Source: Parasphingopyxis algicola
Lineage (GTDB): Bacteria; Pseudomonadota; Alphaproteobacteria; Sphingomonadales; Sphingomonadaceae
Direction of reading: 5' to 3'
Assembly: GCF_013378075.1 (NCBI RefSeq)
Contig: NZ_CP051131.1
Span: 1,674,001-1,738,000 of the forward strand
Length of the DNA: 64,000 nt
Below, one piece after another: positions 36,652 to 52,202 of this stretch; positions within the stretch are counted from its first letter, which is position 1; each line of letters opens with the position of its first letter. A model generated the notes under the pieces. That model had not been told where the DNA came from. It saw only the letters and a list, made by a program, of their open reading frames with translations, and ran no database searches. The position numbers and the translations under genes are program-made.

Positions 36652-37845
36652 CTACTCGATCCCTTGAACGCACCGGTCGACGCCATTGCTGAGATGGCGG
36701 ACCATCATCTCCTCATCTTGCAAGTGAAGGACCGATTTGGCGCCTGATTTGAGCATTTTCGAGATCAGCTCATGGGTGTAGCAATCCTCCATCATCGGGT
36801 CGCGCAGCCCGACCTTGCTATATTCGCGCGCGAACAACTCTCCGGCATTTTTGATCGGCGGGTAATAGCCTTTGATCTCCCAAATGCTGCGGTCGACCGA
36901 GACGGGCCATATGTTGAAAGTAAAATATAACCCGTCGAGTAATCCCACGAAAAAGTTTGGAAAGATGTGCCAGAAGTCGAAAGACCCGCGGAAATCATAA
37001 CCCTCGGTCGGATCGCGCTGCTTGGCGAAGGCTTGCATGGTGCCGGTGCCAAACTGGCTTGCCAGGAGCGCCGCCGGGGAAGGCTCGAACGCATCGGGAG
37101 GCGGAGAACCGAGTACGCCGTGAGGACCATGCAATTCAATCGCACTGTGGCGGAACTGTTTGCCTTCCAATTTTACCGCGCGGGCAAGCGTTTTTTCATG
37201 CAGATATGGCAGATGCCATCCTTCTAGCTGTGCCTCCTGCAAGGTTTTCCAGTTTACATTCTCGTCGATCCGATAGTGAAAAGCCGGCGTGAAGCCTGAA
37301 AAATCATAGGCTGCGATCTCGTCGACGACCGGGCCCAGAAAGTCATGCAGGCTTTGCTCGGGTTCCTCTGCGAGATTGACGAAAATGAATTCGCGCCAGA
37401 CATCGCAATTGACGGGCGTCAATCCATTTTCGGCCTTCTCTACAGAGGGGAAATTCTCGCTATCCGAAACCTGCACCAGATTGCCTTTTGTATCGTAGAC
37501 CCAGCCGTGAAAACGGCAGGCCATATAACCGCGGCACGAACCCTTTTCGTCCCAGGCAAGCGGCGCCCCCCGGTGCGAACACATATTGTGGAATGCGCGA
37601 TACTCGCCGTCTTTGCCGTGAATGACGAGCAGGGAGGTGTTGGCCACGGGAAGCTCAACCACGAAATAATCGCCTGGGTTGGGTGCATCGAGACGATTCC
37701 CGATGTTTAACCATTTGCGCCGGAAAACACGGTCTTTTTCACGCGCGAAATATTCTTCCGACGTATAGCGCTCGATCGGTACGGGATCGCCCCCCTCTTC
37801 CGGATAGCGGCGCGAAAATCGTAAAGAATCCGGTTCGACATTCAT
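36652..37845 (-). CDS. Rieske non-haem iron oxygenase, alpha subunit 1
   Basis: A 397-residue terminal oxygenase. The Rieske 2Fe-2S site is CSHRG with CRFHGW (Cys89, His91, Cys110, His113). The mononuclear iron region is WKTLQEAQLEGWHLPYLHEK with His211 and His216. The position that carries the bridging Asp in most ring-hydroxylating oxygenases is Glu208. It adds oxygen to an aromatic ring or to an N- or O-alkyl group; the substrate is unknown. The ATG overlaps the stop of small protein A. Unlike the other two oxygenases, no NTF2-like subunit gene is in its operon. Confidence 0.9.
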   Translation of the reverse strand: MNVEPDSLRFSRRYPEEGGDPVPIERYTSEEYFAREKDRVFRRKWLNIGNRLDAPNPGDYFVVELPVANTSLLVIHGKDGEYRAFHNMCSHRGAPLAWDEKGSCRGYMACRFHGWVYDTKGNLVQVSDSENFPSVEKAENGLTPVNCDVWREFIFVNLAEEPEQSLHDFLGPVVDEIAAYDFSGFTPAFHYRIDENVNWKTLQEAQLEGWHLPYLHEKTLARAVKLEGKQFRHSAIELHGPHGVLGSPPPDAFEPSPAALLASQFGTGTMQAFAKQRDPTEGYDFRGSFDFWHIFPNFFVGLLDGLYFTFNIWPVSVDRSIWEIKGYYPPIKNAGELFAREYSKVGLRDPMMEDCYTHELISKMLKSGAKSVLHLQDEEMMVRHLSNGVDRCVQGIE

Positions 37846-38201
37846 GCTGATGCTCCTGTGGCGAACGTTTCATTCCAGCCGTCATGCAGCGGTATGAAAC
37901 GGGCGATCGGGAAAACATATTTCGGCTGCGGCTCGCCATACATCTCGATCGTTACCGAGACTTCCGTGAAGGCGAGGCAGAGGTTGAGCAGCGATGTTTG
38001 TCTCGCATCCAGCTCGTCAATCGGAAAGCCGTTCAGATACTCTAGAGCCGTCGCCCCATGTCCGAGCATTGCGTCGTAAAAGGCTTGGCTTTCCGCCAGC
38101 GTCGCGCGCCAGCGATAGCTGTTCCGGTCATGTTCGGTCGGTAACGCCCAATCGGAAAAAGGCTCGAGCGCAGTAAAATCGTCCGGAAAAGTGCCGGGCA
38201 T
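37842..38201 (-). CDS. Rieske-associated small protein A
   Basis: A 119-residue protein of a family that accompanies all three Rieske alpha genes here. Shared pattern: F..LEP..DW.L near the N-terminus, AFYDAM-type helix, LNLCLAFTEVSVTIEMYG (the LALAE..PH.ELY.G region of the others) and RFIPLHDG near the end. It looks mostly helical with no signal peptide, metal motif or membrane segment. Start 38201 was chosen for AGGAG six bases upstream and agreement with the homologues. First gene of the operon and coupled to alpha 1 by ATGA. Function unknown. Confidence 0.75.
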   Translation of the reverse strand: MPGTFPDDFTALEPFSDWALPTEHDRNSYRWRATLAESQAFYDAMLGHGATALEYLNGFPIDELDARQTSLLNLCLAFTEVSVTIEMYGEPQPKYVFPIARFIPLHDGWNETFATGASA

Positions 38202-38299
38202 CGCAAACTCCTGCATGAAGGCAGGGTTACCATGCTGGCTAAGCCGGGCTGCAACTATCACCTTGACGCAATATTTATACCCTGACCGCTATCGATTGG

Positions 38300-38313
38300 G
38301 TCACGATATTGAC
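38300..38313. promoter_or_regulatory. Inverted repeat in the divergent promoter gap
   Basis: GTCA-N6-TGAC lies midway between the reverse small-protein-A operon and the forward catechol operon. A dyad here could be an operator controlling both directions, but nothing else in the sequence proves it, and AraC proteins usually bind direct repeats. Confidence 0.25.
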
Positions 38314-38388
38314 AGGCGCGCGCGCTCCCTGCGTGATGGCGGTCATGAATAACGACCCATCCCAGACCCCTTGCGACCAGACGCAGAT

Positions 38389-39264
38389 ATGACGGTATCA
38401 GAGCAATCCACCGACAAAGTCCTTCGGTCGACCCACATGATTACCAGCGCCGTTATTGCGGCGATATCGGACGATACCGATCCTCGGCTGCGTGAGATAA
38501 TGGAGGCACTGGTCTCTCATCTTCACGATTTCGCTCGCGACGTGAATCTGAATACTTCGGAATGGCTCGAGGGAATGAATTTTCTCGTTCGCGCAGGGCA
38601 GATGAGCAACGAGAAACGCAATGAGGTCATTCTTGTCGCGGACATACTTGGGCTCGAAAGCGTGGTCGATGCGCTTACGTTCGGAGCTTCGGGCGATACG
38701 ACGGAGTCGGCCGTTCTAGGTCCATTTTACAGGGAAGGTGCGCCAATGCTTCCCGATGGCGCCAGCATCGTCCAAGACGGGAGCCAGGAACAGACTGTCT
38801 TGGTTCAGGGTGTCGTGTTCGATGCGAACGGAAAGCCGTTGGCAGGCGCAACGCTCGACATATGGGAAACGGCGCCCAATGGTCTTTATGAACAACAGGA
38901 TCCGGATCAACCGGATATGAACTTGCGTGGCAAGTTCGCAACCGGACCGGACGGGCGCTATAGTTTTATCGGCCTTCGGCCAGTCGAATATCCGATACCG
39001 TTCGATGGCCCGGCTGGGGATTTGTTGCAATTGATGGGCCGGCACCCATACCGGCCGGGTCATATTCATTTTATCGTAAATGCGCCCGGCCACAAAAAAT
39101 TGATAACTCAGATATTCGATCGCGATGCCTCATATCTCGACAGCGATGCGGTGTTCGCAGTCAAAGATTCCCTGCTTGTCGATTTCTCGCCCGCGCCGAA
39201 AAATGCCGCCACTGATTATATCGTAAATTATGATATTGAGCTGACGTCGGCCGATCAGGCCTGA
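38389..39264 (+). CDS. catA: Catechol 1,2-dioxygenase (intradiol)
   Basis: Fe(III) enzyme opening catechol between its hydroxyls to cis,cis-muconate. The 291-residue protein has an N-terminal helical dioxygenase_N domain and the catalytic beta-core: ESAVLGPFYREGAP, the Tyr ligand region GLYEQQDPDQPDMNLRGKF, YPIPFDGPAGDLL with the second Tyr, and the two His ligands in RPGHIHFIV. The conserved MNLRGKF segment is also found in hydroxyquinol 1,2-dioxygenases, so that activity is an alternative. Start 38389 preferred over an upstream TTG. First gene of the forward operon. Confidence 0.87.
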   Translation: MTVSEQSTDKVLRSTHMITSAVIAAISDDTDPRLREIMEALVSHLHDFARDVNLNTSEWLEGMNFLVRAGQMSNEKRNEVILVADILGLESVVDALTFGASGDTTESAVLGPFYREGAPMLPDGASIVQDGSQEQTVLVQGVVFDANGKPLAGATLDIWETAPNGLYEQQDPDQPDMNLRGKFATGPDGRYSFIGLRPVEYPIPFDGPAGDLLQLMGRHPYRPGHIHFIVNAPGHKKLITQIFDRDASYLDSDAVFAVKDSLLVDFSPAPKNAATDYIVNYDIELTSADQA

Positions 39265-40457
39265 TGAAGGCCGACACAAATACGAGTGATCATGCTCCGG
39301 ACATCGGCAGCGACGGAGCGGCAAGCGGAGGTTTATCGTCGGATATCGTCGAAAGGATCGAGTGCACGATCGTCGACATACCGATCAAACGGCTGCATAA
39401 ACTGTCCTCGCTGGCGACGGCTGAGCAGAACTATGTGATCGTTCGGATTGAAACCCGTGAGGGCGTAGTCGGCATTGGCGAGGCCTCCACGCTCGGCGGC
39501 CCGAGATGGTCGGAAGAAACGGCTGAGAGTATCGCCGCCGTAATTGATCGCTACCTCGCGCCTGCGATCATTGGAAAACCGGTCGACGGCATCAACGCCA
39601 TCTCTGCGATCATGGACAAGACCGCCAAGCGCAACAATGCGGCCAAAAGCTCGATTGAATGCGCGCTATTCGATATCATCTCGCAGCGCCTGGGAGTGCC
39701 GATGCACAGATTGTTCGGCGGCGCGGTGCGCGACCGCATCCGTGTCGCTTGGACGCTCGCTTCGGGTGACCCCGGTCAAGAAATCGAAGAAGCCAAGGAG
39801 AAGTTGGAAACCCGCCGACACAATCTGTTCAAGATCAAGATGGGTGCGCTCGACTTGGCTAAGGATAGCGCGCGCATTACTAAACTCGCCAGCGCTTTAG
39901 GCGCGCATGCCGATCTCATTGTTGACGCCAATGAAGGGTGGGACGAGCCGGTTGCCCACAGGCTGCTCGACCAGTTTGACGATCTCGGGATCGCGCTGGT
40001 TGAACAGCCGCTCGCTGCATGGGATATCGAAGGTGCAGTGCGCCTCAAAAGTCGTTCGCGGGTGCCGATCATGGTCGATGAGGGCGTTTTCTCCCCACAT
40101 GACGCACTGGCCGTAGCGCGTGCCGGCGCCGCGGATGTCGTTTCGCTCAAATTGGTCAAACATGGCGGACCGACAGGCGCGCGAAAAATCGCAGCCATTG
40201 CGGAATCTGGCGGGTTGTCGCTCTATGGCGGCTGCTTGCTCGAGAGTTCGATCGGCGCAGCCGCGCATCTTCATTTTTTCGCTAGCCTCGAAAAGCTGCA
40301 ATGGCATTGTGAGCATTTCGGGCCGCAAATTCTTGTCGACGAAATCGTCACCGATCCTATCGTCTATGAAGATTTCTGTGCCGTCGTGCCGGAGGGACCA
40401 GGGGCCGGGATAGAGATCGATCCCGACAAGCTCCGCCACTACCGGCGCAAGGGTTGA
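39264..40457 (+). CDS. catB: Muconate cycloisomerase (enolase superfamily)
   Basis: Converts cis,cis-muconate to muconolactone. The 397-residue protein has the MLE-subgroup layout: an N-terminal capping domain, then the barrel with the KxK acid/base motif (NLFKIKMGA), metal ligands in IVDANEGW, LVEQPL and MVDEGVF, and a Lys in VSLKLVKHGG. Chloromuconate cycloisomerases are close relatives and cannot be excluded. TGATG overlap with catA. Dipeptide epimerases share the fold, but the operon context argues for muconate. Confidence 0.87.
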   Translation: MKADTNTSDHAPDIGSDGAASGGLSSDIVERIECTIVDIPIKRLHKLSSLATAEQNYVIVRIETREGVVGIGEASTLGGPRWSEETAESIAAVIDRYLAPAIIGKPVDGINAISAIMDKTAKRNNAAKSSIECALFDIISQRLGVPMHRLFGGAVRDRIRVAWTLASGDPGQEIEEAKEKLETRRHNLFKIKMGALDLAKDSARITKLASALGAHADLIVDANEGWDEPVAHRLLDQFDDLGIALVEQPLAAWDIEGAVRLKSRSRVPIMVDEGVFSPHDALAVARAGAADVVSLKLVKHGGPTGARKIAAIAESGGLSLYGGCLLESSIGAAAHLHFFASLEKLQWHCEHFGPQILVDEIVTDPIVYEDFCAVVPEGPGAGIEIDPDKLRHYRRKG

Positions 40458-40572
40458 TGATGACCATATCTGTCGAACTTCCAAAATACGCACCTCGGAT
40501 ACGCTCGCGGTGCTTCCATCATTCTCATCGAGCCGCGCGTTCGTCACCCCGCTATCAAGGAAACTGCGACCT

Positions 40573-40866
40573 ATGCTCTATCATGTCGAAATGACGGTAT
40601 GTATTCCGGCAGACGCTGACGGGGAGGCGATCGAAAAGCTGAAGGCAGAGGAGAAAGCGATAGCGCTCTCGCTTCAGCAAAAGGGTCTCTGGCGCCATCT
40701 ATGGCGGATAGCAGGGGCCTACGCCAATATCAGTATTTTCGACGTCGATGATCACGACCAGCTGCACCGTATATTGTCCGGCCTCCCGCTGTTTCCGTAT
40801 ATGGAAATGGAAGTCACGCCGCTCGCACTTCACCCGTCCGCGCTCGATGCCGGCGAGAGCCAATGA
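40573..40866 (+). CDS. catC: Muconolactone delta-isomerase
   Basis: A 97-residue protein isomerising muconolactone to beta-ketoadipate enol-lactone. It begins MLYHVEMTVCIPAD and contains LQQKGLWRHLWRIAGAYANI and GLPLFPYMEMEVTPLALHPS, all characteristic of CatC. The ATG at 40573 is preceded by AAGGAAA; upstream in-frame codons do not resemble the family. Its stop overlaps the following ATG. Confidence 0.9.
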   Translation: MLYHVEMTVCIPADADGEAIEKLKAEEKAIALSLQQKGLWRHLWRIAGAYANISIFDVDDHDQLHRILSGLPLFPYMEMEVTPLALHPSALDAGESQ

Positions 40867-41621
40867 CGAAGCCCCGCAGTCGCATCGCGATGATCGTGCC
40901 GGTTCCGGTACCGGAAGCAGCGCTTAGCTCATTCGCCGCACAGATCCCCGAGAGTCTTGCCGGTCAGACAGATATCGAATTCAGCTGCGCCGAGCGCGGC
41001 GGTGCAACTCTCGATTCCTATTATGAAGGCGCGCTGGCCGACTTTTATTGCCTCAAGGCCGGTATCGAGGCGGCTCAGCGAGGATGCGACGCTGTTTGCA
41101 TCAATTCGATGAGCGACTCGGGGGTAACAGCTCTGCGCTCGCGACTGAATATACCGGTGATCGGCACCGCCCAGTCCACTTATCTCGCCGCCTGCCTTCT
41201 CGGTAAGCGGTTTTCGATACTCAGCATGTGGCATCGCTGGTCTTGGCTCTATGAAAAAGTAATTGCTGAACAGGGGCTAGGGCATCGACTGGCATCAATT
41301 CGGTCGATCGATGTGCCGCCCGATACGGAGGATCTGCTGCAAGGCAAAGAGGATTTCGTCTTTCCGTTACTGGAGAGCGCGGCCCGCATTGCAGTCGAGG
41401 AGGACGGTGCGGATGTCCTGATTATCGGCTCGACGACGATGCACCAGTCGCACGCCTTCCTGGAAAAAACGATCGATGTGCCGGTTCTCAATCCCGGATT
41501 GGTTGCATTCAAAACATGCGAGCTATTGCTCGCGCTGGATTTGAGTCACAGCAAAGCCAGTTTTATCCAACCGCAAGCTCACTCCGATAACAATCTGGCT
41601 TCAGGTGCGGATTTAGCGTAA
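40863..41621 (+). CDS. Asp/Glu/hydantoin-racemase-fold protein lacking both catalytic cysteines
   Basis: A 252-residue member of the Asp/Glu/hydantoin racemase superfamily, which also includes maleate isomerase and arylmalonate decarboxylase. It aligns by eye with hydantoin racemase, but the first catalytic Cys (IACFGDPG) is Ser82 in INSMSDSGV, and the second (LGCAGM) is Ser190 in IGSTTMHQS. Two-cysteine racemisation chemistry is therefore not possible as usual. It sits inside the catechol operon, overlapping catC by four bases, so it may act on a muconate-derived intermediate. Function unknown. Confidence 0.75.
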   Translation: MTKPRSRIAMIVPVPVPEAALSSFAAQIPESLAGQTDIEFSCAERGGATLDSYYEGALADFYCLKAGIEAAQRGCDAVCINSMSDSGVTALRSRLNIPVIGTAQSTYLAACLLGKRFSILSMWHRWSWLYEKVIAEQGLGHRLASIRSIDVPPDTEDLLQGKEDFVFPLLESAARIAVEEDGADVLIIGSTTMHQSHAFLEKTIDVPVLNPGLVAFKTCELLLALDLSHSKASFIQPQAHSDNNLASGADLA

Positions 41622-41644
41622 GAAATTAAGTTGGGGAGATAAAA

Positions 41645-42697
41645 ATGCCAGCACAAGCTTCAGCATCTCTCCCTTTTTGGGATGGGACCGGTCTACCGAT
41701 GAGCCGGTGCAAACAGTTTCGCAGTACAAACGCCGACACCGTTCGAAGCTATATGGGTTCGCTCTTTTGCGACCATACGCTGCGCACAGAGGGCGGAATG
41801 CCGCCAATGAGCTTTCGTCACCATCGAACGCGTCTCAATGGGATAACCTTCCACGCAACGGATTACGGCATGCCCTATGGCCGGGTGATGATCGATATTC
41901 CCGTGATCAGCGATATTTGCCTCGTTCAGTTCTCGATATCGGGGACGGCCGCGATGAGTGCGGGCGGCAAAACCTTCGAAATGCCCCCCGGTCATATGTG
42001 CGTATTGAACTCGGAAACTCCGGTTCGCCAAGTGTTCGATCACGATTACAAACATGTTACTGTGAAGATCCCGATCCGCCAGATAGAATCGGTCTTGCAT
42101 AAGGAATTGGGTTTTCGTGAATTGAATCTCGAATTGCAGCCCACCCCGATCAAGCTCGACGGCGCGGCAAGCGGCTTCGCGCACATGGTCCGAACGATCT
42201 GTGACGACATAGATTCCGGACTCTCCGCTTATCATCACAGGCGTGCGGTCGAAACGGTTGAGGATACCCTTACCAGGCTGCTTCTCGCGGTCGTTCCACA
42301 TAGTTATTCGGATCTGTATAATGCGCCAGCGCACGGCCCCGCGCCCTATTATGTGAAGCGGGTCGAACAATATATCTACGAGAGCCGTGACCACGACGGC
42401 GCGATTACGCTGGCCGATATGGTCGAGGTGTCAGGCGTAAGCGCGCGGTCACTTCATGCGGGTTTCCGCCGTTTTCGCGATACAACTCCTATGGCATATC
42501 TGAAACAGTGCCGGCTCGATAGGGCTCGCCGGAAACTCAAAACTGGCGTCGACGACGGAACGACGGTAACTGAAATCGCCATGGCGTGCGGCTTTACGCA
42601 TCTGAGCAAATTCGCGCGAGATTATCAGGAACGATTTGGCGAACTTCCTTCTGCAACGCTCAAACAGTTTGAGCCGCACCCAACAGCGCGATCATAG
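41645..42697 (+). CDS. AraC-family transcriptional regulator
   Basis: A 350-residue regulator. The N-terminal part (about 60-220) looks like the AraC-binding-like domain of the catabolic (AlkS/XylS/FeaR-type) group, with FEMPPGHMCVLNSETPVRQ. The C-terminal double helix-turn-helix contains ITLADMVEVSGVSARSLHAGFRRF and VTEIAMACGFTHLSKFARDYQ. It is 23 bases behind the racemase-like gene with its own GGGGAG site, so it may be co-transcribed. It probably activates the flanking catabolic operons on sensing a substrate. Confidence 0.88.
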   Translation: MPAQASASLPFWDGTGLPMSRCKQFRSTNADTVRSYMGSLFCDHTLRTEGGMPPMSFRHHRTRLNGITFHATDYGMPYGRVMIDIPVISDICLVQFSISGTAAMSAGGKTFEMPPGHMCVLNSETPVRQVFDHDYKHVTVKIPIRQIESVLHKELGFRELNLELQPTPIKLDGAASGFAHMVRTICDDIDSGLSAYHHRRAVETVEDTLTRLLLAVVPHSYSDLYNAPAHGPAPYYVKRVEQYIYESRDHDGAITLADMVEVSGVSARSLHAGFRRFRDTTPMAYLKQCRLDRARRKLKTGVDDGTTVTEIAMACGFTHLSKFARDYQERFGELPSATLKQFEPHPTARS

Positions 42698-42740
42698 AAA
42701 CCCTATGCGCGAAAGAGTGGTTTAGGATGCCGAGAATTCT

Positions 42741-43046
42741 TCATTCGGCGAGCATCACCTCGCCATTTTCGCAAACCACCGGATAAACTTTCAACGAGGC
42801 CGTACATGGCGCGCGGGTCGGCTCGCCGGTACGGATATCGAATGCCCCCAGATGGAAGGGACATATAATCTCATGCCCCTCGATCTCACCTTCCGCCAGC
42901 GACGCTTCGCCGTGCGTGCAGACGTCGTCGGTAGCATAGAAACCGTCATCTAGCCGGTATACAGCCAGTATGCGCCCATCAGCCAGAGTGACCTGCTTGG
43001 GTTCGTCGGCGTCGACATCTGCAGTTTTACAAAGAAATAGGGTCAT
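42741..43046 (-). CDS. Rieske-type ferredoxin
   Basis: A 101-residue Rieske 2Fe-2S electron carrier. The cluster motif is CTHGEASLAEG followed by CPFHLGAFD (CxH-16-CxxH), as in BphA3/XylT-like Rieske ferredoxins. It starts MTLFLCKTADVDADEPKQV and ends KVYPVVCENGEVMLAE. It is the last gene of the alpha-2 operon and overlaps the NTF2-like gene by four bases. It should transfer electrons from the flavoprotein reductase encoded at 35410-36645 to the oxygenases. Confidence 0.92.
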   Translation of the reverse strand: MTLFLCKTADVDADEPKQVTLADGRILAVYRLDDGFYATDDVCTHGEASLAEGEIEGHEIICPFHLGAFDIRTGEPTRAPCTASLKVYPVVCENGEVMLAE

Positions 43047-43525
43047 GCGCTCCGTGCAACCTTCGTATCCCAAGGAGGCGCGGCTTTGCCTTGCAAACGA
43101 AGATCCAGTTTGACCCGCGAAAAAGCCCAAAGCGGACCGCGGCGTTCCACGGTGCTTTCGTACCATCCGCCCAGCCAGCTATCGGCTGCCTCTTCCTGCT
43201 CCTGCGCCATTGTCGCCAGCTCCCACAAATACCAGTGGCAACTCGCTCTATCGCCCGATTGCTCGATATCGATATATGGCGAAACCATGTAGTGGAGCGA
43301 CCAGAAGATCTGAGACTGTGCGATTTCGGCCAATCCGGCCGAAATCGCGTCGCGCCCGCGAAAACTCGAAAAACCGGGCGCTTCCCAAAAGGCATCTTCA
43401 TGAAAAAGCGCGCCCATTATCGCCGGATCGTTCTTTCGATCGGCACCAATCGCATAACGCGCGACCAGCTTTCGAATAGTCTCGTGGGATTCCAGGCGGT
43501 CGAGCCGCTCTTCTATGGACGCCAT
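43043..43525 (-). CDS. NTF2/SnoaL-like beta-type oxygenase subunit (with alpha 2)
   Basis: A 160-residue NTF2-fold protein. It starts MASIEERLDRLESHETIRKL and has ALFHEDAFWEAPGFSSFRGR and SLHYMVSPYIDIEQSGDRA, the typical helix-cone of SnoaL-like proteins. Beta subunits of ring-hydroxylating oxygenases share this fold, and the gene lies between small protein B and the ferredoxin gene, so a structural subunit is the best guess. A separate isomerase or dehydratase is possible. Confidence 0.75.
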   Translation of the reverse strand: MASIEERLDRLESHETIRKLVARYAIGADRKNDPAIMGALFHEDAFWEAPGFSSFRGRDAISAGLAEIAQSQIFWSLHYMVSPYIDIEQSGDRASCHWYLWELATMAQEQEEAADSWLGGWYESTVERRGPLWAFSRVKLDLRLQGKAAPPWDTKVARSA

Positions 43526-43528
43526 AGG

Positions 43529-43903
43529 TCAGTCTTTATTGTCCATCGGCGATTTGCCACGCCATGTTTCCTGATCCCCGTGAACCGCAATCATTCGACT
43601 TTCCTCAAACGCATATGGTACCGCCGGATCGCCCTTGTAGAGTTCGACATGCGGGGCGATCTCGGCAAGGGCGAGAGCAAGATTGTAAATGGGGAGATGG
43701 CTTTCGGGCAGCTCGCCCAAGGGAAAGCGATCCACTTCCTCGAGAATAGATTCCAGATGTGGATGAACCCCCTCATAAAAAGCGTGAATCTCTTCCACGC
43801 TTGAAGCGCGGCGCTTGTCCTGACGTTCGTTCGCCGTAGCGAGGTTCCAGTCCATATGAGGCTCCAAATCTTCGAAGCCTTTTGGTAATATGCTATCGGT
43901 CAC
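43529..43903 (-). CDS. Rieske-associated small protein B
   Basis: A 124-residue member of the family seen at all three Rieske genes. It has FEDLEPHMDWNLATANERQ, EEIHAFYEGVHPHLESILEE and the central LALALAEIAPHVELYKGDPA, followed by VPYAFEESRMIAVHG. I start it at GTG 43903 (AAGGGG six bases upstream, agreement with the homologues); GTG 43918, overlapping the alpha-2 stop, is the alternative. It lies between alpha 2 and the NTF2-like gene. No recognised domain; helical and acidic. Confidence 0.75.
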   Translation of the reverse strand: MTDSILPKGFEDLEPHMDWNLATANERQDKRRASSVEEIHAFYEGVHPHLESILEEVDRFPLGELPESHLPIYNLALALAEIAPHVELYKGDPAVPYAFEESRMIAVHGDQETWRGKSPMDNKD

Positions 43904-43914
43904 GCAGAACCCCT

Positions 43915-45108
43915 TCACGCATTGACATATTGATCGACGACAACAGCCCCATGACGGATCAAAATCTCGTCATCCTGAAGATTCTGATGCTGCTTTGCCC
44001 CGGATTTCATTGCGCGATGCGTATCTTCCATCGTTGCGGTGTCCTCGAGCCAGGCATTGCGCTGCAGCGTCATGGCGTGTTCCAGCGCCCAGCGTTGCGC
44101 ATTGGTCTCGGGCTCCGCGACATAATAGCGCCCTTCCCACAATGTCCGGTCATAAGCTAACGGCCAGAATTGATGAGTGAACCATATGCCCTCGGACACG
44201 TGGATCAGGGTGTTGGGAAACAGCACGCTGAGCTCGAACGAGAAATCCTGCGCGCGGTCTGGGTTGATCGTCGGCGGAAGCATGGACTCTCCGCGCTGCG
44301 CTACCAGCGAGCCGGTCGCCAGTTCGTTCGCTAGACCCGCGATCGGCGTCGGTTTGCCGTTCATCGACAGATGGACCGCCGACGTACGGTGCGGTCCCAT
44401 CAGCTTTACCCGCTCGAGTCCGTTCGAAAACACATTGGGAAACGAACCCGCATGAATGGTATCGACATGATAGGCCTCCGCAAAGGCGTCATGCGCGATC
44501 TTCCAGTTGCAATCGAGCTCCGTATAATAGGTGAACTGATAGGGCATCTTGTCGAATGGATAGCCGGCGAAATGTTGGCCATATTCACCAAGAAAATCTT
44601 CGAGACCCTGCGCCGGGCTTTCGGAGAAATTGACGAAGATGAACCCTTCCCATTCTCCTACATGGATTGCGGTCAGGCCGTTTTCGGATTTGTCGAAACA
44701 TTCGTAAAAGCGATCTTCCTGGGGAACGCTGATCAACGAACCATCCGCTCCGTAAACCCAGCCATGAAATCGGCAGGTCAGGATCGCGGCGCGGCTATTG
44801 CCGAGGGTTTCATGGCCCGTTTCGGTGACCACGGTGTTGCCCCGGTGCGCGCACATGTTGTGGAAGGCGCCGACATTTCCGTCCTTACCGCGAATGACGA
44901 TTACAGATGTATCCGCCGCTTCGATCCGCTTCGCCTTGTAATCGCCGGCGTTCGGAATTTCCTCGTTTCTGCCGACACATAGCCACTCCTTATGGAATAT
45001 CTTTTCCTTTTCGCGCTGATAATAGTTCGGCGAAATATAAGGTTCGATCGGAATAGGCCCATGGCCGAGTTCGCTATATTGATCGCCCCAGCGATGCGGT
45101 GTGTTCAT
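43915..45108 (-). CDS. Rieske non-haem iron oxygenase, alpha subunit 2
   Basis: A 397-residue terminal oxygenase. The Rieske cluster ligands are Cys86, His88, Cys112 and His115 (CAHRG, CRFHGW). The mononuclear iron site is in NWKIAHDAFAEAYHVDTIH with His214 and His219; the bridging position is Glu211. FTHQFWPLAYDRTLWEG and RNAWLEDTATMEDTH are shared with alpha 3, so these two are closer to each other than to alpha 1. ATG 45108 has AGAAGGA upstream. Substrate unknown. Confidence 0.9.
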   Translation of the reverse strand: MNTPHRWGDQYSELGHGPIPIEPYISPNYYQREKEKIFHKEWLCVGRNEEIPNAGDYKAKRIEAADTSVIVIRGKDGNVGAFHNMCAHRGNTVVTETGHETLGNSRAAILTCRFHGWVYGADGSLISVPQEDRFYECFDKSENGLTAIHVGEWEGFIFVNFSESPAQGLEDFLGEYGQHFAGYPFDKMPYQFTYYTELDCNWKIAHDAFAEAYHVDTIHAGSFPNVFSNGLERVKLMGPHRTSAVHLSMNGKPTPIAGLANELATGSLVAQRGESMLPPTINPDRAQDFSFELSVLFPNTLIHVSEGIWFTHQFWPLAYDRTLWEGRYYVAEPETNAQRWALEHAMTLQRNAWLEDTATMEDTHRAMKSGAKQHQNLQDDEILIRHGAVVVDQYVNA

Positions 45109-45136
45109 AGCCAATATCCTTCTATCTGAGCGCGCG

Positions 45137-46303
45137 TTAATCTTCGAAAATATCAAGTGGCAAGATTGCCGAAACGACGAAATTGGGAACGTCGACAAGC
45201 TGGCCGATCCTGAGATCGACCGCGGCCGCTGCGATCACATAGGCCTGTTCCCTGCTGAGGCTCTTTTCCTCCACCATCCAGTCGATGATGCGAACCAGTG
45301 CATCGCGCGTCGCGAGCGTCAAATCTTCGGACAGATTGGTAAGCGGCGCCACCTTGGGACTGTCGAGATAGGCGAGATGCGGCGGCACTTCTCCCGCCTG
45401 TTTCACCGGCATACCGGTGACCGCGTGAAACCTGGTCGGCTCTGTTGCCTTGAGCTGCGCACCGCCCCGGATCTGTGGGAAACGCATATTCTTGCCGCCG
45501 CCCTTTATGATTTCGCATCGCAGTGTGACCGTGGCCGCCATTTCCACGGCCGTACCGCACACTTCGCCATCGCCCTGCGCATAATGGATATCTCCGGTCC
45601 ACAGACCGGCACCGTCATGGAGAACCGGAAACAGGATGGTCGTTCCGATCTGCATCGCCTTCACGTCCATATTGCCGCCGTTTTCGCGAGGGGGAATGGT
45701 GCGAAGCCCTTCCGAGGCATAGGGCGCCTCTTTGCCGAACAAATTCGCCGGAACCGCGCCATCAGGATCGGGCATCAAGACGAATCCTCCGGCCTCCGCC
45801 AGTGCGCCCTCTCGCTCGAGAGCATCTGCAACCTCCAGTTTGCCCGGAAGCACGCCGATGGACCCCGGGAAAGCGCACATCGGAATACGCACGCCTGGAA
45901 TTTGATCGGAAACCGCATGGAGGCGGTCCAGCTTCCAGTTGGCGATGAACGGTCCAGGGATGAGATCACGCAAAAAACCGAAACCCGGCACGATCACGGT
46001 ATAGCCGTAATCGTCGGGGGCGATGTCGACGACCGTTACCGCCAGAGCATCTCCGCGCTCGGCTCCTTCGATGTGCACGGGGCCGGTCATCGGGTGGACG
46101 CGATTCAAGTCGCAATCCGCGACTTGCCCGGAGCTGGTCCCGAAATCGAACTGCGAATCGAAGGCATCCCGCGTATGATAGACAATATAGTCGCCGGGCT
46201 TGGCCGTCGCGACCGGATCGAGCGCATAATGCAGACGGTTAAAGCAATTCGGATCGTCTGCAGCCAGCCGACCGCTTCGCGTGATTGTGACCGTCTCCGC
46301 CAT
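45137..46303 (-). CDS. Acetamidase/formamidase family amidohydrolase
   Basis: A 388-residue FmdA/AmdA-family protein. Family landmarks include VHPMTGPVHIEGAERGDAL, PPRENGGNMDVKAMQIGTTI, GDIHYAQGDGEVCGTAVEM and PHLAYLDSP. It hydrolyses short amides to acid and ammonia. It is the first gene of the alpha-2 operon, 28 bases before the alpha subunit, suggesting the growth substrate carries an amide or that a C1/N fragment such as formamide is released. The true substrate is unknown. Confidence 0.88.
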   Translation of the reverse strand: MAETVTITRSGRLAADDPNCFNRLHYALDPVATAKPGDYIVYHTRDAFDSQFDFGTSSGQVADCDLNRVHPMTGPVHIEGAERGDALAVTVVDIAPDDYGYTVIVPGFGFLRDLIPGPFIANWKLDRLHAVSDQIPGVRIPMCAFPGSIGVLPGKLEVADALEREGALAEAGGFVLMPDPDGAVPANLFGKEAPYASEGLRTIPPRENGGNMDVKAMQIGTTILFPVLHDGAGLWTGDIHYAQGDGEVCGTAVEMAATVTLRCEIIKGGGKNMRFPQIRGGAQLKATEPTRFHAVTGMPVKQAGEVPPHLAYLDSPKVAPLTNLSEDLTLATRDALVRIIDWMVEEKSLSREQAYVIAAAAVDLRIGQLVDVPNFVVSAILPLDIFED

Positions 46304-46527
46304 TTACATGCCCTTTAATTGTCTTGCGGATGAGCCTGAATGAAACGAACCCGCGGAAAGCCGCTTTATGTGGCGCGAGTGGGCGATCGAACACTAGCCC
46401 GCTGGCGTCTCGGTTAGCCTGAACATGCACCCATTCTCTCAAAAGCCCGAAAATATGCGGCCCGGCTTCGCGGCATGATAACGCAAGTCAATTGCGGCGT
46501 CGGGTTCATACTCGCGCATTCAGGCTA

Positions 46528-47375: not shown

Positions 47376-47378
47376 TAG
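46582..47378 (+). CDS. IS5-family transposase, two frames joined by programmed frameshift
   Basis: The first frame (46582-47031) carries the N-terminal helix-turn-helix half (DEEWALIGPLLPPERGRSCR, MIDSTVVRAHH). The second frame (from about 46908 to 47378) continues GRSRGGFTTKLHARCD, FLADRGYDADAIR and NLIERLFNKLKNWRRIATRYD with the DDE catalytic residues. The switch occurs near the slippery ATAAAAAGGGG at about 46921, as is usual in this group. The stop codon uses the TAG at the insertion boundary. It appears intact. Confidence 0.85.
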
Positions 47379-47508
47379 CGCGAAAGCCCGGAGAAGTGCT
47401 TTTTCTAAGGAACAGTCACAAAATCGTAAGAATTTGTAGCTGCACGGCTCCAATACAGTACGCAAAGAGATGAAGGCCGTTCAACCGTTACTCAAAAGGG
47501 GGTTTAGC

Positions 47509-50013
47509 ATGGGTCGTATTTTTCTCGAGCAGCCGAACGGCCGGTTTTTTGAAGGCCGAAGAAAGATATCTTCACGAGTCAGCGTGCTCGCCCTGACTGC
47601 GGCCATCGGCAATCTTGCTGCTTTTGCCCCTGCGAACGCCCAAGAACCGCCTGAGGCATCCCCGCAAACTCCACCTCAGTCGGCCGATGTAACAAACCGT
47701 GCGGAAGCGGCGACCGAGCCTGAGACAGCGCTGGCAGATACCACTACAACAGCAGACAATATCGGCGTCGGCACGATTGTAGTGACGGCAAGACGGCGCG
47801 AGGAATCACTGCAGGACACCCCCATCTCGATTTCTGCTGTTACCGCAAATGACTTGCAGGAAAGGGGCATCAACACCGTCACCGATATCGGAGACTTCAC
47901 ACCGAACGTCCGCTTCAACAGTTCGGTGCCAGTGTCGGCCAGCAATGCGACGGCAGCGATCTACATACGCGGAATCGGGCAGAACGACTATCAATTGTCG
48001 GCCGATCCGGGGGTCGGACTTTATCTCGATGGCGTGTATATCTCGCGCGGCGTCGGCAACATGCTGGATGTTCTCGACATAGAGCGCATCGAAGTGCTGC
48101 GCGGACCGCAAGGCACTTTGTTCGGACGCAATACAATCGGTGGTGCCGTTAGCGTCGTCACCAGAAAGCCCGCCGACGAATTAAGCGGCCGGGTGCAGCT
48201 CACTACGGGCCGGTATAATAGAGTACAGGCAAACGGGATAATCGATGTTCCGATTACCGATGGCGTGTATTCTAGCCTCGCCTTTTTCTACCACAATAGA
48301 GAAGGCTATGTGGATGGGACGCTAATCAATGCGCCCGATCTCGGCGATACGAATTCGCTTGCTGGTCGCTTCGCCATACGGCTAGAGCCGACTCACAATC
48401 TATCGATCAATATCGCGGTGGACGGCACGCGGTCGCGCGAGGAATCAGCGCCAAACGTGCTGATAGAAGCGTTTGAAGATGCGGACGCCGCACAGATATA
48501 TAATGGCGTATTTTCGGGTGCCCCGCAGATTTGTGCCGATCCTACCAATCCGGCGCGGCTTAACGACGCGCGTTGCTATAATAGCCAGTGGGAGTTGGCG
48601 CCGTTTGAACATGCCGGCACGTTTCAGACGATTTTTCCCCAGTTCGACAATTTCGGAAGCCGCCGATATCAGTCCGCATCCGACACCGATATCTGGGGTA
48701 TCTACGGCACTCTCGAATGGGAACTGACAGACAATATCAGTTTCAAATCGATTACCGCCTATCGCAGCGTCGAAGGATTTTGGACGCGCGACTCAGATCA
48801 CAGCCCGGCCTCTCTGGTACAGACTAAGAATGATTGGACACAGGACCAATTCTCCCAAGAGGTTCAGCTTTTGGGAAATGCCTTCGATGACAGGCTGAAT
48901 TGGGTTATCGGTGCCTATTATGCGGACGAGCAAGGCGATCACCGCGATGTTGTCGGCATCCTCGACGCGGTGTTTCTTAGCGGCGCAACATTGGAAGCCG
49001 AAAGCGTCGCCTTTTTCGGCCAGGCTACATTCGAAATCGTGGAGAATCTGAATCTGACCGCAGGCATCAGATGGACGGAAGATGAAAAGACGTTTTTTAA
49101 TGATAACCAGTTCATCGTCGAAGCCGGCGTCTTTACGGGAGCACCCCTGAACCCGGATGGCAGCGGTTTGATGGACGGCGATCCATTGATGGGGCCTTTG
49201 GGTTCAAGCTCGACGGTCAGCGACGACGCCTGGACACCGATGGCCAGCCTTTCCTATCGCTGGAACGATAGTCTGCTGACCTATGTCTCCTATTCGGAAG
49301 GATTCAAAGGCGGAGGTTTCACACAGCGTGTCTTCCCGCCATTGCCTGACATACCCACATTCCGGCCGGAATTCAGTACATCCTACGAATTTGGCTTCAA
49401 AAGCGATCTCTTCGACCGGCGTTTGCGGATAAACGGGGCGATCTTCCGTAACGATTACACGGATCTCCAGCTTACGGTGAATGATCCCACATTGGGTTTC
49501 GCGCCGATTGTCCAGAACGCTGCGCAGGCAAGAATCGAAGGGTTCGAGCTCGAGTTTGAGGCCCGGCCGATCGAGCCACTGCGCTTACAGGCAGGCGTTG
49601 GTTATCTCGATGCGCGCTATCTCGAGGTCGATATCCGGGGCCGTAATGCCGGTGTGACGGTTGACGACCGTCTGCAAAACGCGCCCGAATGGACGCTTAG
49701 CGCCAGTGCGGCCTATGATATCGACATTATCGGCTTTGGCACGCTGACGCCGCGCGTCGATTGGTCCTACCGTTCCACCGTCGCCAACGACGCTGTCAAC
49801 ACACCCCAGCTGATCCAGGGCGGCTATCACCTACTCAACGCCTCGTTAAATTTTCTCGATGAGGACGAACGATTTGGTCTTCGCTTCGAGGTCAAGAATA
49901 TTACTGACGAAGTCTATCTGGGCTCGGGTTATTTTGATGGTTTTGGCGGGATCATCGAGGGTGTCTACGGTCGGCCGCGCGAATGGTCGCTGACGGCGAG
50001 CGTGCGGTTTTGA
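47509..50013 (+). CDS. TonB-dependent outer-membrane receptor 1
   Basis: An 834-residue sphingomonad-type receptor. A long signal region ends AFAPANAQ; a linker precedes the plug, which contains IVVTARRREESLQDTPISIS (TonB box region), IERIEVLRGPQGTLFGRNTIGG and PGVGLYLDGVYISRGVGN. The barrel ends with RPREWSLTASVRF. It probably imports the aromatic substrate or its conjugate. Start 47509 has AAAGGGGG upstream; an ATG at 47470 is possible. The next gene starts within its 3' end. Confidence 0.9.
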   Translation: MGRIFLEQPNGRFFEGRRKISSRVSVLALTAAIGNLAAFAPANAQEPPEASPQTPPQSADVTNRAEAATEPETALADTTTTADNIGVGTIVVTARRREESLQDTPISISAVTANDLQERGINTVTDIGDFTPNVRFNSSVPVSASNATAAIYIRGIGQNDYQLSADPGVGLYLDGVYISRGVGNMLDVLDIERIEVLRGPQGTLFGRNTIGGAVSVVTRKPADELSGRVQLTTGRYNRVQANGIIDVPITDGVYSSLAFFYHNREGYVDGTLINAPDLGDTNSLAGRFAIRLEPTHNLSINIAVDGTRSREESAPNVLIEAFEDADAAQIYNGVFSGAPQICADPTNPARLNDARCYNSQWELAPFEHAGTFQTIFPQFDNFGSRRYQSASDTDIWGIYGTLEWELTDNISFKSITAYRSVEGFWTRDSDHSPASLVQTKNDWTQDQFSQEVQLLGNAFDDRLNWVIGAYYADEQGDHRDVVGILDAVFLSGATLEAESVAFFGQATFEIVENLNLTAGIRWTEDEKTFFNDNQFIVEAGVFTGAPLNPDGSGLMDGDPLMGPLGSSSTVSDDAWTPMASLSYRWNDSLLTYVSYSEGFKGGGFTQRVFPPLPDIPTFRPEFSTSYEFGFKSDLFDRRLRINGAIFRNDYTDLQLTVNDPTLGFAPIVQNAAQARIEGFELEFEARPIEPLRLQAGVGYLDARYLEVDIRGRNAGVTVDDRLQNAPEWTLSASAAYDIDIIGFGTLTPRVDWSYRSTVANDAVNTPQLIQGGYHLLNASLNFLDEDERFGLRFEVKNITDEVYLGSGYFDGFGGIIEGVYGRPREWSLTASVRF

Positions 50014-50492
50014 CGCTCGTCGAATTGGCCGAGCGGCTCGCGCGCGTCGAAGCTCGCCAGGCAATTGAGGACCTGATTGCCAATCTTGCGCGAGCTTTCG
50101 ATGCCGGGCCGTCGGCCGAAGTTCTTCGGCCGCTCTTCCATGCGGATGCAATCTTTCATATCGACAATTACGGCACGCTCGAAGGCCGGGACGCGATTGT
50201 AGAAGGTGTCATGGGAAACGCCGATACCGGGTTTGCCTGGACGCTTCATTTTCTGGTTTCGCCGCGGATCGCCCTATCGGACACCGCCACCGCGGCGAAG
50301 CTCGGCTTCATGCTCTGGGAGACGGCTACATCTGCAAGCGGCCGCGCTTATTGGATAGGCGGTCGATATCAAGCGGAAGCGCGACAGGAAAAGGATAAAT
50401 GGGTCTTCACCCATCTGGCGCTCGAAGCGGAATTGATATCGCATTATCCGGAAGGGTGGCATGAAAAGCCGGCGAGTTTGGATGCGACCTGA
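49983..50492 (+). CDS. NTF2/SnoaL-like beta-type oxygenase subunit (with alpha 3)
   Basis: A protein of up to 169 residues with an NTF2-like fold: LAERLARVEARQAIEDLIANLARAFD, LRPLFHADAIFHIDNYGTLEGRD and TLHFLVSPRIALSD, similar in layout to the protein beside alpha 2 (both have LHxxVSP). The ATG at 49983 overlaps the receptor gene by 31 bases; a TTG at 50010 overlapping the receptor TGA is an alternative that begins the homologous region more naturally. Probably a structural subunit for alpha 3. Confidence 0.7.
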   Translation: MVADGERAVLTLVELAERLARVEARQAIEDLIANLARAFDAGPSAEVLRPLFHADAIFHIDNYGTLEGRDAIVEGVMGNADTGFAWTLHFLVSPRIALSDTATAAKLGFMLWETATSASGRAYWIGGRYQAEARQEKDKWVFTHLALEAELISHYPEGWHEKPASLDAT

Positions 50493-50596
50493 CCGGCGAG
50501 TGGATCAATTGCGCTCCGGGGACGGGCGAAGCGGTCAACGGCTAGCGCCTATTACCGCCTATCCGCACAATCGCCCCTCTACAAAGGGACGATGCA

Positions 50597-51847
50597 GTGG
50601 TTGAAACTTCAACTGAAATGGATGCGCCGCCTGGCAGTCTGGATCATATCCTGCGATCGACCGATGCCATTCGCGACGAGTTAGGCGTCGAATCGGTTTC
50701 GCTGGACATTGTTCGCGATCCCGCGCTCTTCGAGCGGGAGCGGGAGGCAATTTTCGGCAAGGTCTGGCTGAAGGTCGCAACCGAATGGGAGTTGCCCCGA
50801 CCAGGCGACTATAAGGTCAAGAGCATCGCCGTCGCCGATGCGTCTGTGATCATCGTGCGCGGCAAGGACGGAACGGTCAGAGCCTTCCATAATGTCTGTA
50901 CGCATCGGGGTAACCGGATCGTCTCATCCAACGATTTCGAAACCTCAGGCAACGCAAGGGCCAATGTGTTTTCCTGCCGCTTTCACGGCTGGGTATTTTC
51001 AACCGACGGCACGCTCCGTTCGGTTCCCATGGAAGAGGGTTTCGGGTCTTTGGACAAGGATTGCCTCGGTCTCAAGGAAATTGCCTGCGATGTGTGGCAG
51101 GGGTTCATTTTCATCAACTTCGTCGATGAGCCCGATCAAACGCTGGGTGATTATCTCGGTGATTTCGGAAAATTATTCGCCGGATTCCCTTATCACGAAG
51201 CGACCACCGCCTATCGCTATTCCACCGTGCTGGATTGCAACTGGAAAGTCGCGCTGTTCGCGTTCAGCGAAGGTTATCACGTGCCGACGATCCATGCCGG
51301 GTCGTTGCCCGGATTTACCGGCCTCGAACATACCGACTTCAAGCTTATGGGGCCGCACGCATCGTCGACCATCTATGGCGGCGGGATGGATGCGGCGCAG
51401 TCGACGAACACTTTTGCCGGGTTACTGGCTGGCTCCCCGCTTCACAAACCCAAGCCTGACCAGCTACCGCCGAATATCAATCCCATGCGACGGGAAGACT
51501 TCCAGTTCGAATTCCCCAATATCTTTCCTAATTTCCTAATCCATCTTGCCGCTGGATGCGGTTATCCGGGAATGGCCTATTTCACGCATCAATTCTGGCC
51601 GCTCGAGCATGGCAAGACGCTCTGGGAGGGCATCAACTATTTTTGGCCAGCACAAAATGCGGCCGAAGATGTCGCTCAACGTCACGTCAATGCGCTGCAT
51701 CGCAATGCCTGGCTGGAAGATACGGCGACGATGGAGGATACCTTTGCCGGGATTATGTCCGGTGTGCTCGATACCGTCGAACTCATGGATCTCGAATTCA
51801 TGATTCGACATGCCGCCCGGACGGTCCGGACATATATCGATGTCTGA
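50597..51847 (+). CDS. Rieske non-haem iron oxygenase, alpha subunit 3
   Basis: A 416-residue terminal oxygenase starting at GTG 50597 with AAAGGGA upstream. Cluster ligands: Cys101, His103, Cys127, His130 (CTHRG, CRFHGW). The iron site NWKVALFAFSEGYHVPTIHAG has His228 and His233, with Glu225 in the bridging position. FTHQFWPLEHGKTLWEG and RNAWLEDTATMEDTFAG match alpha 2. It overlaps small protein C by eight bases. The operon continues into chlorocatechol-type genes, so its product is probably a substituted catechol. Confidence 0.9.
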   Translation: MVETSTEMDAPPGSLDHILRSTDAIRDELGVESVSLDIVRDPALFEREREAIFGKVWLKVATEWELPRPGDYKVKSIAVADASVIIVRGKDGTVRAFHNVCTHRGNRIVSSNDFETSGNARANVFSCRFHGWVFSTDGTLRSVPMEEGFGSLDKDCLGLKEIACDVWQGFIFINFVDEPDQTLGDYLGDFGKLFAGFPYHEATTAYRYSTVLDCNWKVALFAFSEGYHVPTIHAGSLPGFTGLEHTDFKLMGPHASSTIYGGGMDAAQSTNTFAGLLAGSPLHKPKPDQLPPNINPMRREDFQFEFPNIFPNFLIHLAAGCGYPGMAYFTHQFWPLEHGKTLWEGINYFWPAQNAAEDVAQRHVNALHRNAWLEDTATMEDTFAGIMSGVLDTVELMDLEFMIRHAARTVRTYIDV

Positions 51848-52202
51848 GATGAAGCTTCCCGCAGCATATAAGAGCTTGGAGACGATCGCGCTAAAATGGG
51901 CGAAGCCGAGTGAGACCGAGCGCGATGAGGTCAGATGGAACGCCACTCCGGAAGAGTTCGCGGCATTTTACGAAACCGTCATGCCCCATATCGACGCGAT
52001 CCTCGATCATTTATCGAACAGCCAGCCGAAAGATCTCGACGCAGCCGAGAGGCATTTATTCTATCTCGCCTGCGCTTTGGCCGAAGCGACTCCCCACCAT
52101 GAGCTTTACAATGGCAGTGCGCAGGTTCCGTTCAGTTTTGATGCCCGGCGGTTCGTTCCGGCCCATGGCAAACTGGATTCGGCGTCCGGCTCTCCGTCGT
52201 AA
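51840..52202 (+). CDS. Rieske-associated small protein C
   Basis: A 120-residue member of the family found beside each Rieske alpha gene. Family features are LETIALKWAKPSETERDEVRW, EEFAAFYETVMPHIDAILDHL, LACALAEATPHHELYNGSAQ and VPFSFDARRFVPAHG. The ATG at 51840 lies inside the alpha-3 gene (ATGTCTGA overlap), so translation is coupled. No signal peptide, membrane segment or recognised cofactor site. Function unknown; a folding or assembly partner or small structural subunit is plausible. Confidence 0.75.
   Translation: MSEMKLPAAYKSLETIALKWAKPSETERDEVRWNATPEEFAAFYETVMPHIDAILDHLSNSQPKDLDAAERHLFYLACALAEATPHHELYNGSAQVPFSFDARRFVPAHGKLDSASGSPS

Follow-up and report, generated by a model that had tools for sequence, protein, structure and literature searches.

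We propose that one clade of Rieske terminal oxygenases has a dedicated partner without catalytic function, a family of small helical proteins of about 120 residues, and that this partner is most likely a third subunit, a reading to which we give a probability of roughly 0.55. The homology of the small proteins, the adjacency of their genes to Rieske alpha genes, the restriction to a single alpha clade, the co-occurrence of both proteins, the agreement of their trees and their near-equal gene number are shown below. On the other hand, binding, stoichiometry and a need for the small protein in oxygenase activity are only inferred. Three members of the family are encoded in the window, that is the whole stretch of 64,000 nucleotides analysed here (Parasphingopyxis algicola, contig NZ_CP051131.1, positions 1,674,001 to 1,738,000).

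Three oxygenase operons and their small genes

An initial annotation had described three proteins of about 120 residues that looked alike by eye. All three ORFs were confirmed where it had placed them (37842-38201 and 43529-43903 on the minus strand, 51840-52202 on the plus strand; Table 1), and BLAST confirmed their homology, with 34-35% identity across 104-112 residues and pairwise E-values of 3e-22, 4e-21 and 3e-17 in single comparisons, far beyond chance. Two further claims also held: the coordinates show that each small gene adjoins an alpha gene by an overlap of 4-8 bases or a very short distance, and the small gene precedes alpha in one operon and follows it in two. The overlap is of 4 bases in operon 1 and of 8 bases in operon 3. 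For operon 2, two GTG codons are candidate starts of the small gene, at 43918 (129 residues, 4-base overlap) or at 43903 (124 residues, 11-base gap). The claim that the small gene is coupled to every one of three Rieske oxygenases held only in part, being true of the window and not of the genome: the host encodes six PF00848 alphas, three paired with a small gene and three unpaired.

Table 1. Positions of the three Rieske oxygenase operons and neighbouring genes in the window
Feature	Coordinates	Strand	Basis
Carboxymuconolactone-decarboxylase-family protein, operon 1	34696..35292	-	PF02627
FAD/NAD-type reductase, downstream of alpha 1	35410..36645	-	PF07992 + PF14759
Rieske oxygenase alpha 1, 397 aa	36652..37845	-	PF00355 + PF00848
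Small helical protein copy 1, 119 aa; gene precedes alpha 1	37842..38201	-	Translation; homology; own-genome search 188.7 bits
Intradiol dioxygenase, muconate cycloisomerase-type, muconolactone isomerase, Asp/Glu racemase-family and AraC-type regulator genes	38371..42697	+	Pfam matches
Rieske-type ferredoxin, ORF as listed	42741..43166	-	PF00355
SnoaL-like (NTF2-fold) protein, possible beta-like partner	43043..43525	-	PF13577
Small helical protein copy 2; gene follows alpha 2	43529..43918	-	Translation; AlphaFold model, mean pLDDT 84
Rieske oxygenase alpha 2	43915..45198	-	PF00355 + PF00848; translation
Acetamidase/formamidase-family protein, upstream of alpha 2	45137..46303	-	PF03069
SnoaL-like (NTF2-fold) protein, upstream of alpha 3	49983..50492	+	PF13577
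Rieske oxygenase alpha 3, 416 aa	50597..51847	+	PF00355 + PF00848
Small helical protein copy 3, 120 aa; gene follows alpha 3	51840..52202	+	Translation; homology
Intradiol dioxygenase and dienelactone hydrolase-family genes, downstream of small gene 3	52224..53750	+	PF00775 + PF01738

Alpha 2 measures 427 residues from its first start and 397 from its first methionine, the latter being the likelier start. The listed ferredoxin ORF overlaps the preceding gene, and its true start is therefore probably later. The gene order seen with the acetamidase/formamidase gene at alpha 2 is also present on one Novosphingobium and one Acinetobacter plasmid. The catalytic residues of the alphas are intact. 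All three window alphas match PF00355 for the Rieske motif (C-x-H ... C-x2-H) and PF00848 for the 2-His-1-carboxylate iron site; among the alphas of the clade described below, C88, H90, C114 and H117 of the former and H216, H221 and D358 of the latter are found in 78/78 rows, and the bridging Glu in 77/78. No NCBIfam equivalog for a named Rieske oxygenase was reached by the window alphas, which scored 106-119 bits where the cut-offs are 670 and 830; with these models, the best E-value among 40 clade alphas was 1.7e-43.

Sequence and predicted fold of the small protein

Conservation was analyzed in an alignment of 84 of the 85 distinct family members. The columns reaching at least 60% agreement comprise LP.GF..LEPF..WA, R...R, AFY, several Leu and one Glu, and the best conserved residues (copy 2 numbering, 129-residue form) are R32 (84/84), R36 (83/84), W24 and F47 (82/84 each). 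The motif pattern proposed initially held only in part, since VP(Y/F)(A/S)F and R.(I/V)(P/A).HG are confined to the closer relatives of the window proteins. No column reached 60% for Cys or His and 36/84 rows are free of Cys, and no metal or redox ligand is conserved. A ferredoxin or a rubredoxin was rejected for want of conserved Cys or Cys/His cluster ligands.

Searches of Pfam, NCBIfam and PDB sequences with the small proteins gave no match below E 0.01. Specifically, nothing fell below E 0.06 for 38 family members against Pfam or below E 0.02 in the PDB sequence search. Hits to superoxide dismutases (E 0.18) and to Abl interactor (E 0.023), as well as an NCBIfam hit of one family member (E 0.018), were judged to be due to chance. 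The AlphaFold model of copy 2 predicts four helices, mostly above pLDDT 90, with loose ends. Foldseek found no PDB fold for this model at E <= 0.001, only poor helical matches, the best at E 0.94. A Rieske oxygenase beta subunit was also rejected, in view of the four-helix model and of the absence of any beta, SnoaL or NTF2 match below E 0.06 among the 38 members searched against Pfam. Likeness to the MmoB/DmpM effectors found no support in PDB sequence or fold matches, no single member having been compared directly. A model of alpha tethered to the small protein reached a pTM of 0.77; the small part stood at about 73-91 in blocks, below its confidence when folded alone, its tail was below pLDDT 50, only 4 alignment rows covered it and no interface score was available, so that the model speaks neither for nor against docking. 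We found no paper on the small protein in the literature searched. The gene cadK of the cadRABKC 2,4-D cluster was considered as a known small gene and dropped, its product being called a transporter (PMC8446748, PMC11357097).

Coupling to one alpha clade

Profile hits were collected from 68 sources, selected through the small protein and not through alpha, which include 8 of the 22 plasmid records bearing a small gene. Removal of 4 identical copies from 89 hits left 85 distinct members, near-identical ones being retained. Of these, 77 lie on the same strand as a Rieske alpha gene and at most 120 bp from it, and 2 more are the outer copies of small-small-alpha arrays. The initial annotation would have been refuted if its three proteins were not homologous or if such hits lay mainly away from Rieske oxygenases; neither is the case. 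Alpha is upstream of the small gene in 56 of the adjacent pairs and downstream in 21. The two genes overlap in 42/77 pairs, by 4 bases in 36 of the 42, although these counts rest on a rule for picking starts that favours those near the stop of the neighbour. No ORF in the 68 sources matched both profiles, hence no alpha-small fusion was found.

All 73 paired alphas placed in a tree fall within one clade of 78 rows (SH-aLRT 99), 5 of which are unpaired; the same genomes encode a further 38 alphas, none of them paired. The coupling therefore concerns one alpha clade and not Rieske oxygenases in general. The tree was built by a quick method and has several long branches; it omits paired alphas shorter than 330 residues and one clade alpha (L145) cut at the edge of its stretch. 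In addition, the 40 stretches serving as unpaired were hand-picked for the absence of a nearby small hit. The tree of the alphas agrees with that of the small proteins, with r = 0.81 over 72 pairs against a maximum of 0.145 across 2000 shuffles, and swapping partners within genomes gave the best fit for the true pairing in 16 of 17 genomes, many of them closely related. The small protein appears to have been inherited together with the clade alphas.

Of 298 genomes from the host's family, 24 hold clade alphas, and these 24 are also the ones with the small protein. A small gene lies within 200 bp of 49/57 clade alphas, and the remaining 8 belong to genomes with a small gene elsewhere. The alpha profile cut-off of 1e-95 was chosen after a gap in earlier scores had been seen, and this profile, built from paired alphas, may favour those having the partner. 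Absences are not absolute, since at most 15 small and 6 alpha candidates were scored per genome (11 and 4 in a draw from the phylum). In the phylum draw both proteins were limited to the window's own genome, so that it adds no positives.

These counts bear on a rival that we consider less likely, in which the small protein is a clade-specific factor for assembly or maturation that assists alpha in folding, in trimerisation or in the loading of its iron centres and then departs. In its favour, alphas outnumber small genes in four genomes (G172, 3 vs 2; G237, 6 vs 3, six being the ceiling of alpha scoring; G678 and G679, 2 vs 1 each), so that one small protein may serve several alphas; a shared, dissociable factor would suit these cases at least as well. 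In G172, two clade alphas lack a small gene next to them. A helical protein with loose ends would also fit a chaperone. However, copy numbers are equal in 21/24 genomes, 16/18 small genes of the alpha-rich genome G684 lie at most 200 bp from an alpha match and the trees agree pair by pair, which exceeds the needs of a general chaperone, and the small protein has no conserved Cys or His.

The plasmid counts partly overlap those of the genomes. All 18 plasmid records in which a window alpha gave a hit at E <= 1e-40 carry a small gene as well. Conversely, 6 of the 22 records with a small gene lack an alpha hit at this threshold: five belong to a set of seven whose small match shares one identity (43.8%) and E-value, and the sixth, from Cupriavidus, has only an alpha fragment beside the small gene. 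Many loci with the alpha-small pair gave no NTF2-profile match; this profile misses diverged members such as the annotated ester cyclase of locus L031. Plasmid gene tables are incomplete and missing neighbours there consequently mean little. Broken pieces of an alpha-small pair adjoin linC on hexachlorocyclohexane-degradation plasmids.

It could be argued that the small protein is a mere passenger, a pathway enzyme or regulator lying beside alpha without direct link to the enzyme. Pathway reasons can indeed make operon genes co-inherited, and the remaining neighbours at annotated plasmid loci are mostly catabolic genes. Nevertheless, we consider this very unlikely: neighbours vary among these loci while the alpha-small pair persists, with one exception, the coupling is limited to one alpha clade, and on one plasmid alpha and the small gene are the sole annotated genes between two ISRsp3 copies.

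Putative role and comparison with known systems

The initial proposal of an unrecognised functional partner is supported by homology, adjacency, co-occurrence and tree agreement, but physical interaction is not shown and the choice it offered between assembly factor, small subunit and substrate gate remains undecided. In the reading that we favour, the third subunit ("gamma") would bind alpha, with or without an NTF2-like beta, and would be required for a stable or active oxygenase. The near-invariant Arg32, Arg36, Trp24 and Glu92 (copy 2, 129-residue form), may form a contact or functional surface. A bolder version, which could as well be wrong as right, is that the whole clade, in Proteobacteria and Actinomycetota, uses this new helical gamma in an alpha plus gamma enzyme, with or without an NTF2-like beta.

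Another hypothesis, drawn by analogy with MmoB, is that the small protein is an effector or gate binding alpha reversibly and tuning oxygen activation, substrate access or ferredoxin docking. It is non-redox and co-inherited, occurs both with and without an NTF2-profile match and could be used in trans, all of which would agree with such a role. However, PDB searches gave no tie in sequence or fold to any effector family, and we regard this hypothesis as unlikely.

Should the third-subunit reading be correct, the enzymes of this clade, which belong to a long-studied group of bacterial enzymes attacking aromatic and similar compounds, may possess a third working part so far undescribed. If these enzymes need an overlooked partner of 120 residues, there may be a simple reason for alphas expressed on their own to fail; numerous uncharacterised alphas would be opened to testing, and a novel type of subunit or effector to study.

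A parallel can be drawn with the beta subunits of Rieske oxygenases, which are non-catalytic and help to keep the oxygenase stable and functional (PMC12445004). Like the beta of alpha3beta3 enzymes, the small protein is small and, as inferred here, non-catalytic. The beta subunits of these enzymes have an NTF2-like fold, whereas the small protein is predicted to be all-helical, has no Pfam match and is accompanied by a distinct SnoaL-like protein in operons 2 and 3 of the window. By profile as well as by fold, the solved structure nearest to the clade alphas is that of the carnitine monooxygenase CntA, the sequence match spanning only the N-terminal half of alpha; CntA is classed as alpha3 without any small partner (PMC12445004), in contrast to the clade alphas and their partner gene. 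The o-xylene oxygenase of Rhodococcus opacus TKN14, said to need a rubredoxin and another hypothetical protein (PMC5209329), is an enzyme of the Rieske kind with a reported dependence on an unannotated protein, whose kinship to the small family is not established. Small non-catalytic proteins are used by other oxygenase systems, such as NdmE of caffeine demethylase and the effectors MmoB/DmpM, and MmoB-type proteins act on diiron monooxygenases; the small protein differs from these in that it gave no sequence match below E 0.01 in Pfam, NCBIfam or PDB and no PDB fold at E <= 0.001. Finally, a 2025 review lists the solved Rieske oxygenases as alpha3, alpha3beta3, alpha3alpha'3 and alpha3alpha3, with only alpha, alpha' and beta subunits (PMC12445004); an alpha-gamma architecture, if true, would be an addition to that list.

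The three operons of the window

The initial annotation had claimed three small ORFs, homologous to one another and each adjacent to a Rieske oxygenase large subunit (alpha), and this held. The ORFs are present in the sequence, the small proteins share 34-35% identity and 24 columns identical across all three (E values of 3e-22, 4e-21 and 3e-17 in single pairwise comparisons), and each large neighbour carries both PF00355 (Rieske) and PF00848 (ring-hydroxylating catalytic). According to the ORF coordinates, small gene and alpha overlap by 4 bases in operons 1 and 2 (an 11-base gap in the latter if the later GTG is used) and by 8 bases in operon 3. Coupling to every one of three alphas had also been claimed, which is true in the window, but genome-wide only three of the six PF00848 alphas have a small gene alongside (paired alphas). 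The host genome contains no copies beyond these three in a profile search, and a rescan of the flanks of its three other alphas revealed no small gene at E <1.

Small-protein ORFs of the window (two of the three operons are on the minus strand)
Feature	Position	Strand	Remark
Small copy 1	37842-38201	-	ORF present in sequence
Small copy 2	43529-43918	-	start GTG at 43918 or GTG at 43903
Small copy 3	51840-52202	+	ORF present in sequence

Association with one alpha clade

We searched one genome per species (84,980 species) with a pattern derived from the small protein alone. The 21 loci obtained come from sphingomonads and further alpha-, beta- and gammaproteobacteria, as well as from Streptomyces and an acidimicrobial MAG. 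Using one window copy as tblastn query, 22 of 72,556 plasmid records were matched, and a profile search of the host's family found 54 places in 24 of 298 genomes. In a phylum draw of 398 genomes, neither protein was found beyond the window's own genome. Scanning 68 sources (the window, the 21 loci, eight of the 22 plasmid loci and 38 regions around the family-search places outside the host genome) gave 89 small matches, 85 once identical copies were removed. For 77 of these 85 genes, a same-strand Rieske alpha lies no more than 120 bp away, measured from the matched domains (alpha first in 56, small first in 21), and two more occupy the outer position in small-small-alpha arrays. The six exceptions are L018 and L024, solitary small genes in genomes with clade alphas (defined below) elsewhere; L093, solitary in G172, where two clade alphas lack a small gene; L085, separated from its same-strand alpha by 4.4 kb; L032, preceded merely by a 62-residue ORF with a match to the alpha C-terminus; and L027, a plasmid region broken up by IS6100.

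For comparison, 40 further stretches around alphas without small gene were taken from the same genomes, and a rescan detected none at E <1. In a tree of 116 alphas, a single branch of 78 (SH-aLRT 99), termed clade alphas, holds all 73 paired alphas and five unpaired ones, and the remaining 38 are all unpaired; the label changes 5 times on the tree versus a mean of 35 in shuffles. The 24 small-bearing genomes contain 321 PF00848 matches, and most of their alphas therefore fall outside the clade.

Clade alphas were found in 24 of the 298 family genomes by a profile built from 40 paired ones (E <= 1e-95), and these 24 coincide with those bearing the small protein. By coordinates, a small gene lies no more than 200 bp from 49 of their 57 clade alphas, and 49 of the 54 small places have a clade alpha at such a distance; 21 of the 24 genomes carry equal numbers of the two. 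The eight clade alphas without a close small gene belong to G094 (one, small gene 4.4 kb off), G172 (two), G237 (four) and G049 (one, at a contig edge); no diverged copy flanks those of G172, G237 and G049 at E up to 10. Eight additional genomes, picked for a known small protein, all have a clade alpha (>=400 bits). One of them, G684 (the genome of L013), has 20 alphas >=390 bits and 18 small places, 16 of them no farther than 200 bp from an alpha match. G684 is a 2.2 Mb gammaproteobacterial MAG; at locus L157 the order is alpha-small-alpha-small-small-alpha.

Window alpha 2 matched 18 plasmid records at E <= 1e-40, 16 of which are among the 22 small-protein records; the other two (Azospirillum, Sphingobium V4) have a small gene directly behind alpha by profile. 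Six of the 22 lack an alpha match at this threshold. In Sphingobium TKS and MI1205 alpha was matched only in part; in the one whose map was examined, alpha lacks its start where it meets an IS6100 copy, with the small gene 3.7 kb away on the opposite strand.

Finally, we compared the two histories. Tree distances over 72 pairs correlate (r = 0.81, Spearman 0.59; maximum of 2000 shuffles, 0.145). Where a genome or locus holds two to five pairs (17 cases), the true pairing was the best fit in 16 (expected 5.9), several of these genomes being close relatives; in G049 it ranked second of six. That the small protein is a passenger seems very unlikely.

Apparent catabolic and possibly mobile setting

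Around the three window operons are found genes for intradiol dioxygenases, a muconate cycloisomerase-type enzyme, muconolactone isomerase and a dienelactone hydrolase-family protein, a set that, judged from its gene families, resembles an ortho-cleavage catabolic cluster. All three pair types also occur within 20 kb in G174, G220, G253 and G289. Annotated neighbours vary elsewhere: NTF2-family protein and ferredoxin at some loci, a VanB-type reductase at others, an SDR at further ones, and solely insertion sequences at one. Operon 1 includes a CoA-transferase ORF (PF01144, 33966-34832), beside which no second subunit was seen, the ORFs on either side being of other families. Since the cluster is flanked by what we take, by eye and without search, to be a MobA/TraA-like relaxase ORF (28405-31401) and an IS3-type transposase piece (57559-58146), it could sit in or near a mobile element.

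On plasmids of Sphingomonas MM-1 (L027) and Sphingobium MI1205 (L171), a block between IS6100 copies reads TonB receptor, linC (a hexachlorocyclohexane gene), EthD protein, small protein, and a shortened Rieske alpha adjoins another IS6100 boundary. linC was thus perhaps recruited from a Rieske-oxygenase operon of the alpha-small type. On a Sphingobium RSMS plasmid (L167, 4727-6336), only alpha and small are annotated between two ISRsp3 copies, conceivably a mobile two-gene cassette. In L092 (G168), two identical small genes are separated by ~0.9 kb, and a short piece of the alpha C-terminus precedes the second, an arrangement that looks like a recent tandem duplication.

Possible role of the small protein

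The Rieske ligands and 2-His-1-Asp site are kept in all 78 clade alphas and the bridging Glu in 77. Hence the small protein does not substitute for a catalytic part. Among the closest solved structures are those of CntA, stachydrine demethylase and terephthalate dioxygenase.

Searched against Pfam and NCBIfam, 38 small members gave no match below E 0.01; in the PDB, the sequence closest to the profile reaches only E 0.023. Of 22 plasmid rows, 19 are annotated "hypothetical protein" under the match (two also name the neighbouring alpha) and three have no annotation. The AlphaFold model of copy 2 predicts four helices (16-24, 29-38, 41-62, 72-94), mostly at pLDDT >90, with loose ends and a mean of 84; no similar PDB fold was found at E <= 0.001. 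Over 84 rows (copy 2 numbering), Arg32 is invariant, followed by Arg36 (83/84), Trp24 and Phe47 (82/84 each), Pro12 (82/83) and Glu92 (78/84). In no column does Cys or His reach 60% conservation, so we judged a ferredoxin, rubredoxin or thiol metal carrier unlikely.

We propose that the small protein would be a subunit binding the Rieske oxygenase. This is the simplest reading because the partner is co-inherited and non-redox, and its gene often overlaps alpha. Binding is inferred, and we hold a subunit-like partner of clade alphas to be slightly more likely than not (roughly 0.55). A tethered alpha-small model, meant to reveal docking, gave no clear result either way. Some genomes have more alphas than small genes, which leaves room for an assembly factor, a possible reading, and for a reversible effector of alpha, which we consider unlikely.

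We found no account of the family in the literature searched, which omits most subscription journals. A Rhodococcus o-xylene system is reported to require rubredoxin and another hypothetical protein (PMC5209329), whose kinship to the small family is not established. The architectures listed in a 2025 review of Rieske oxygenases are alpha3, alpha3beta3, alpha3alpha'3 and alpha3alpha3 (PMC12445004).
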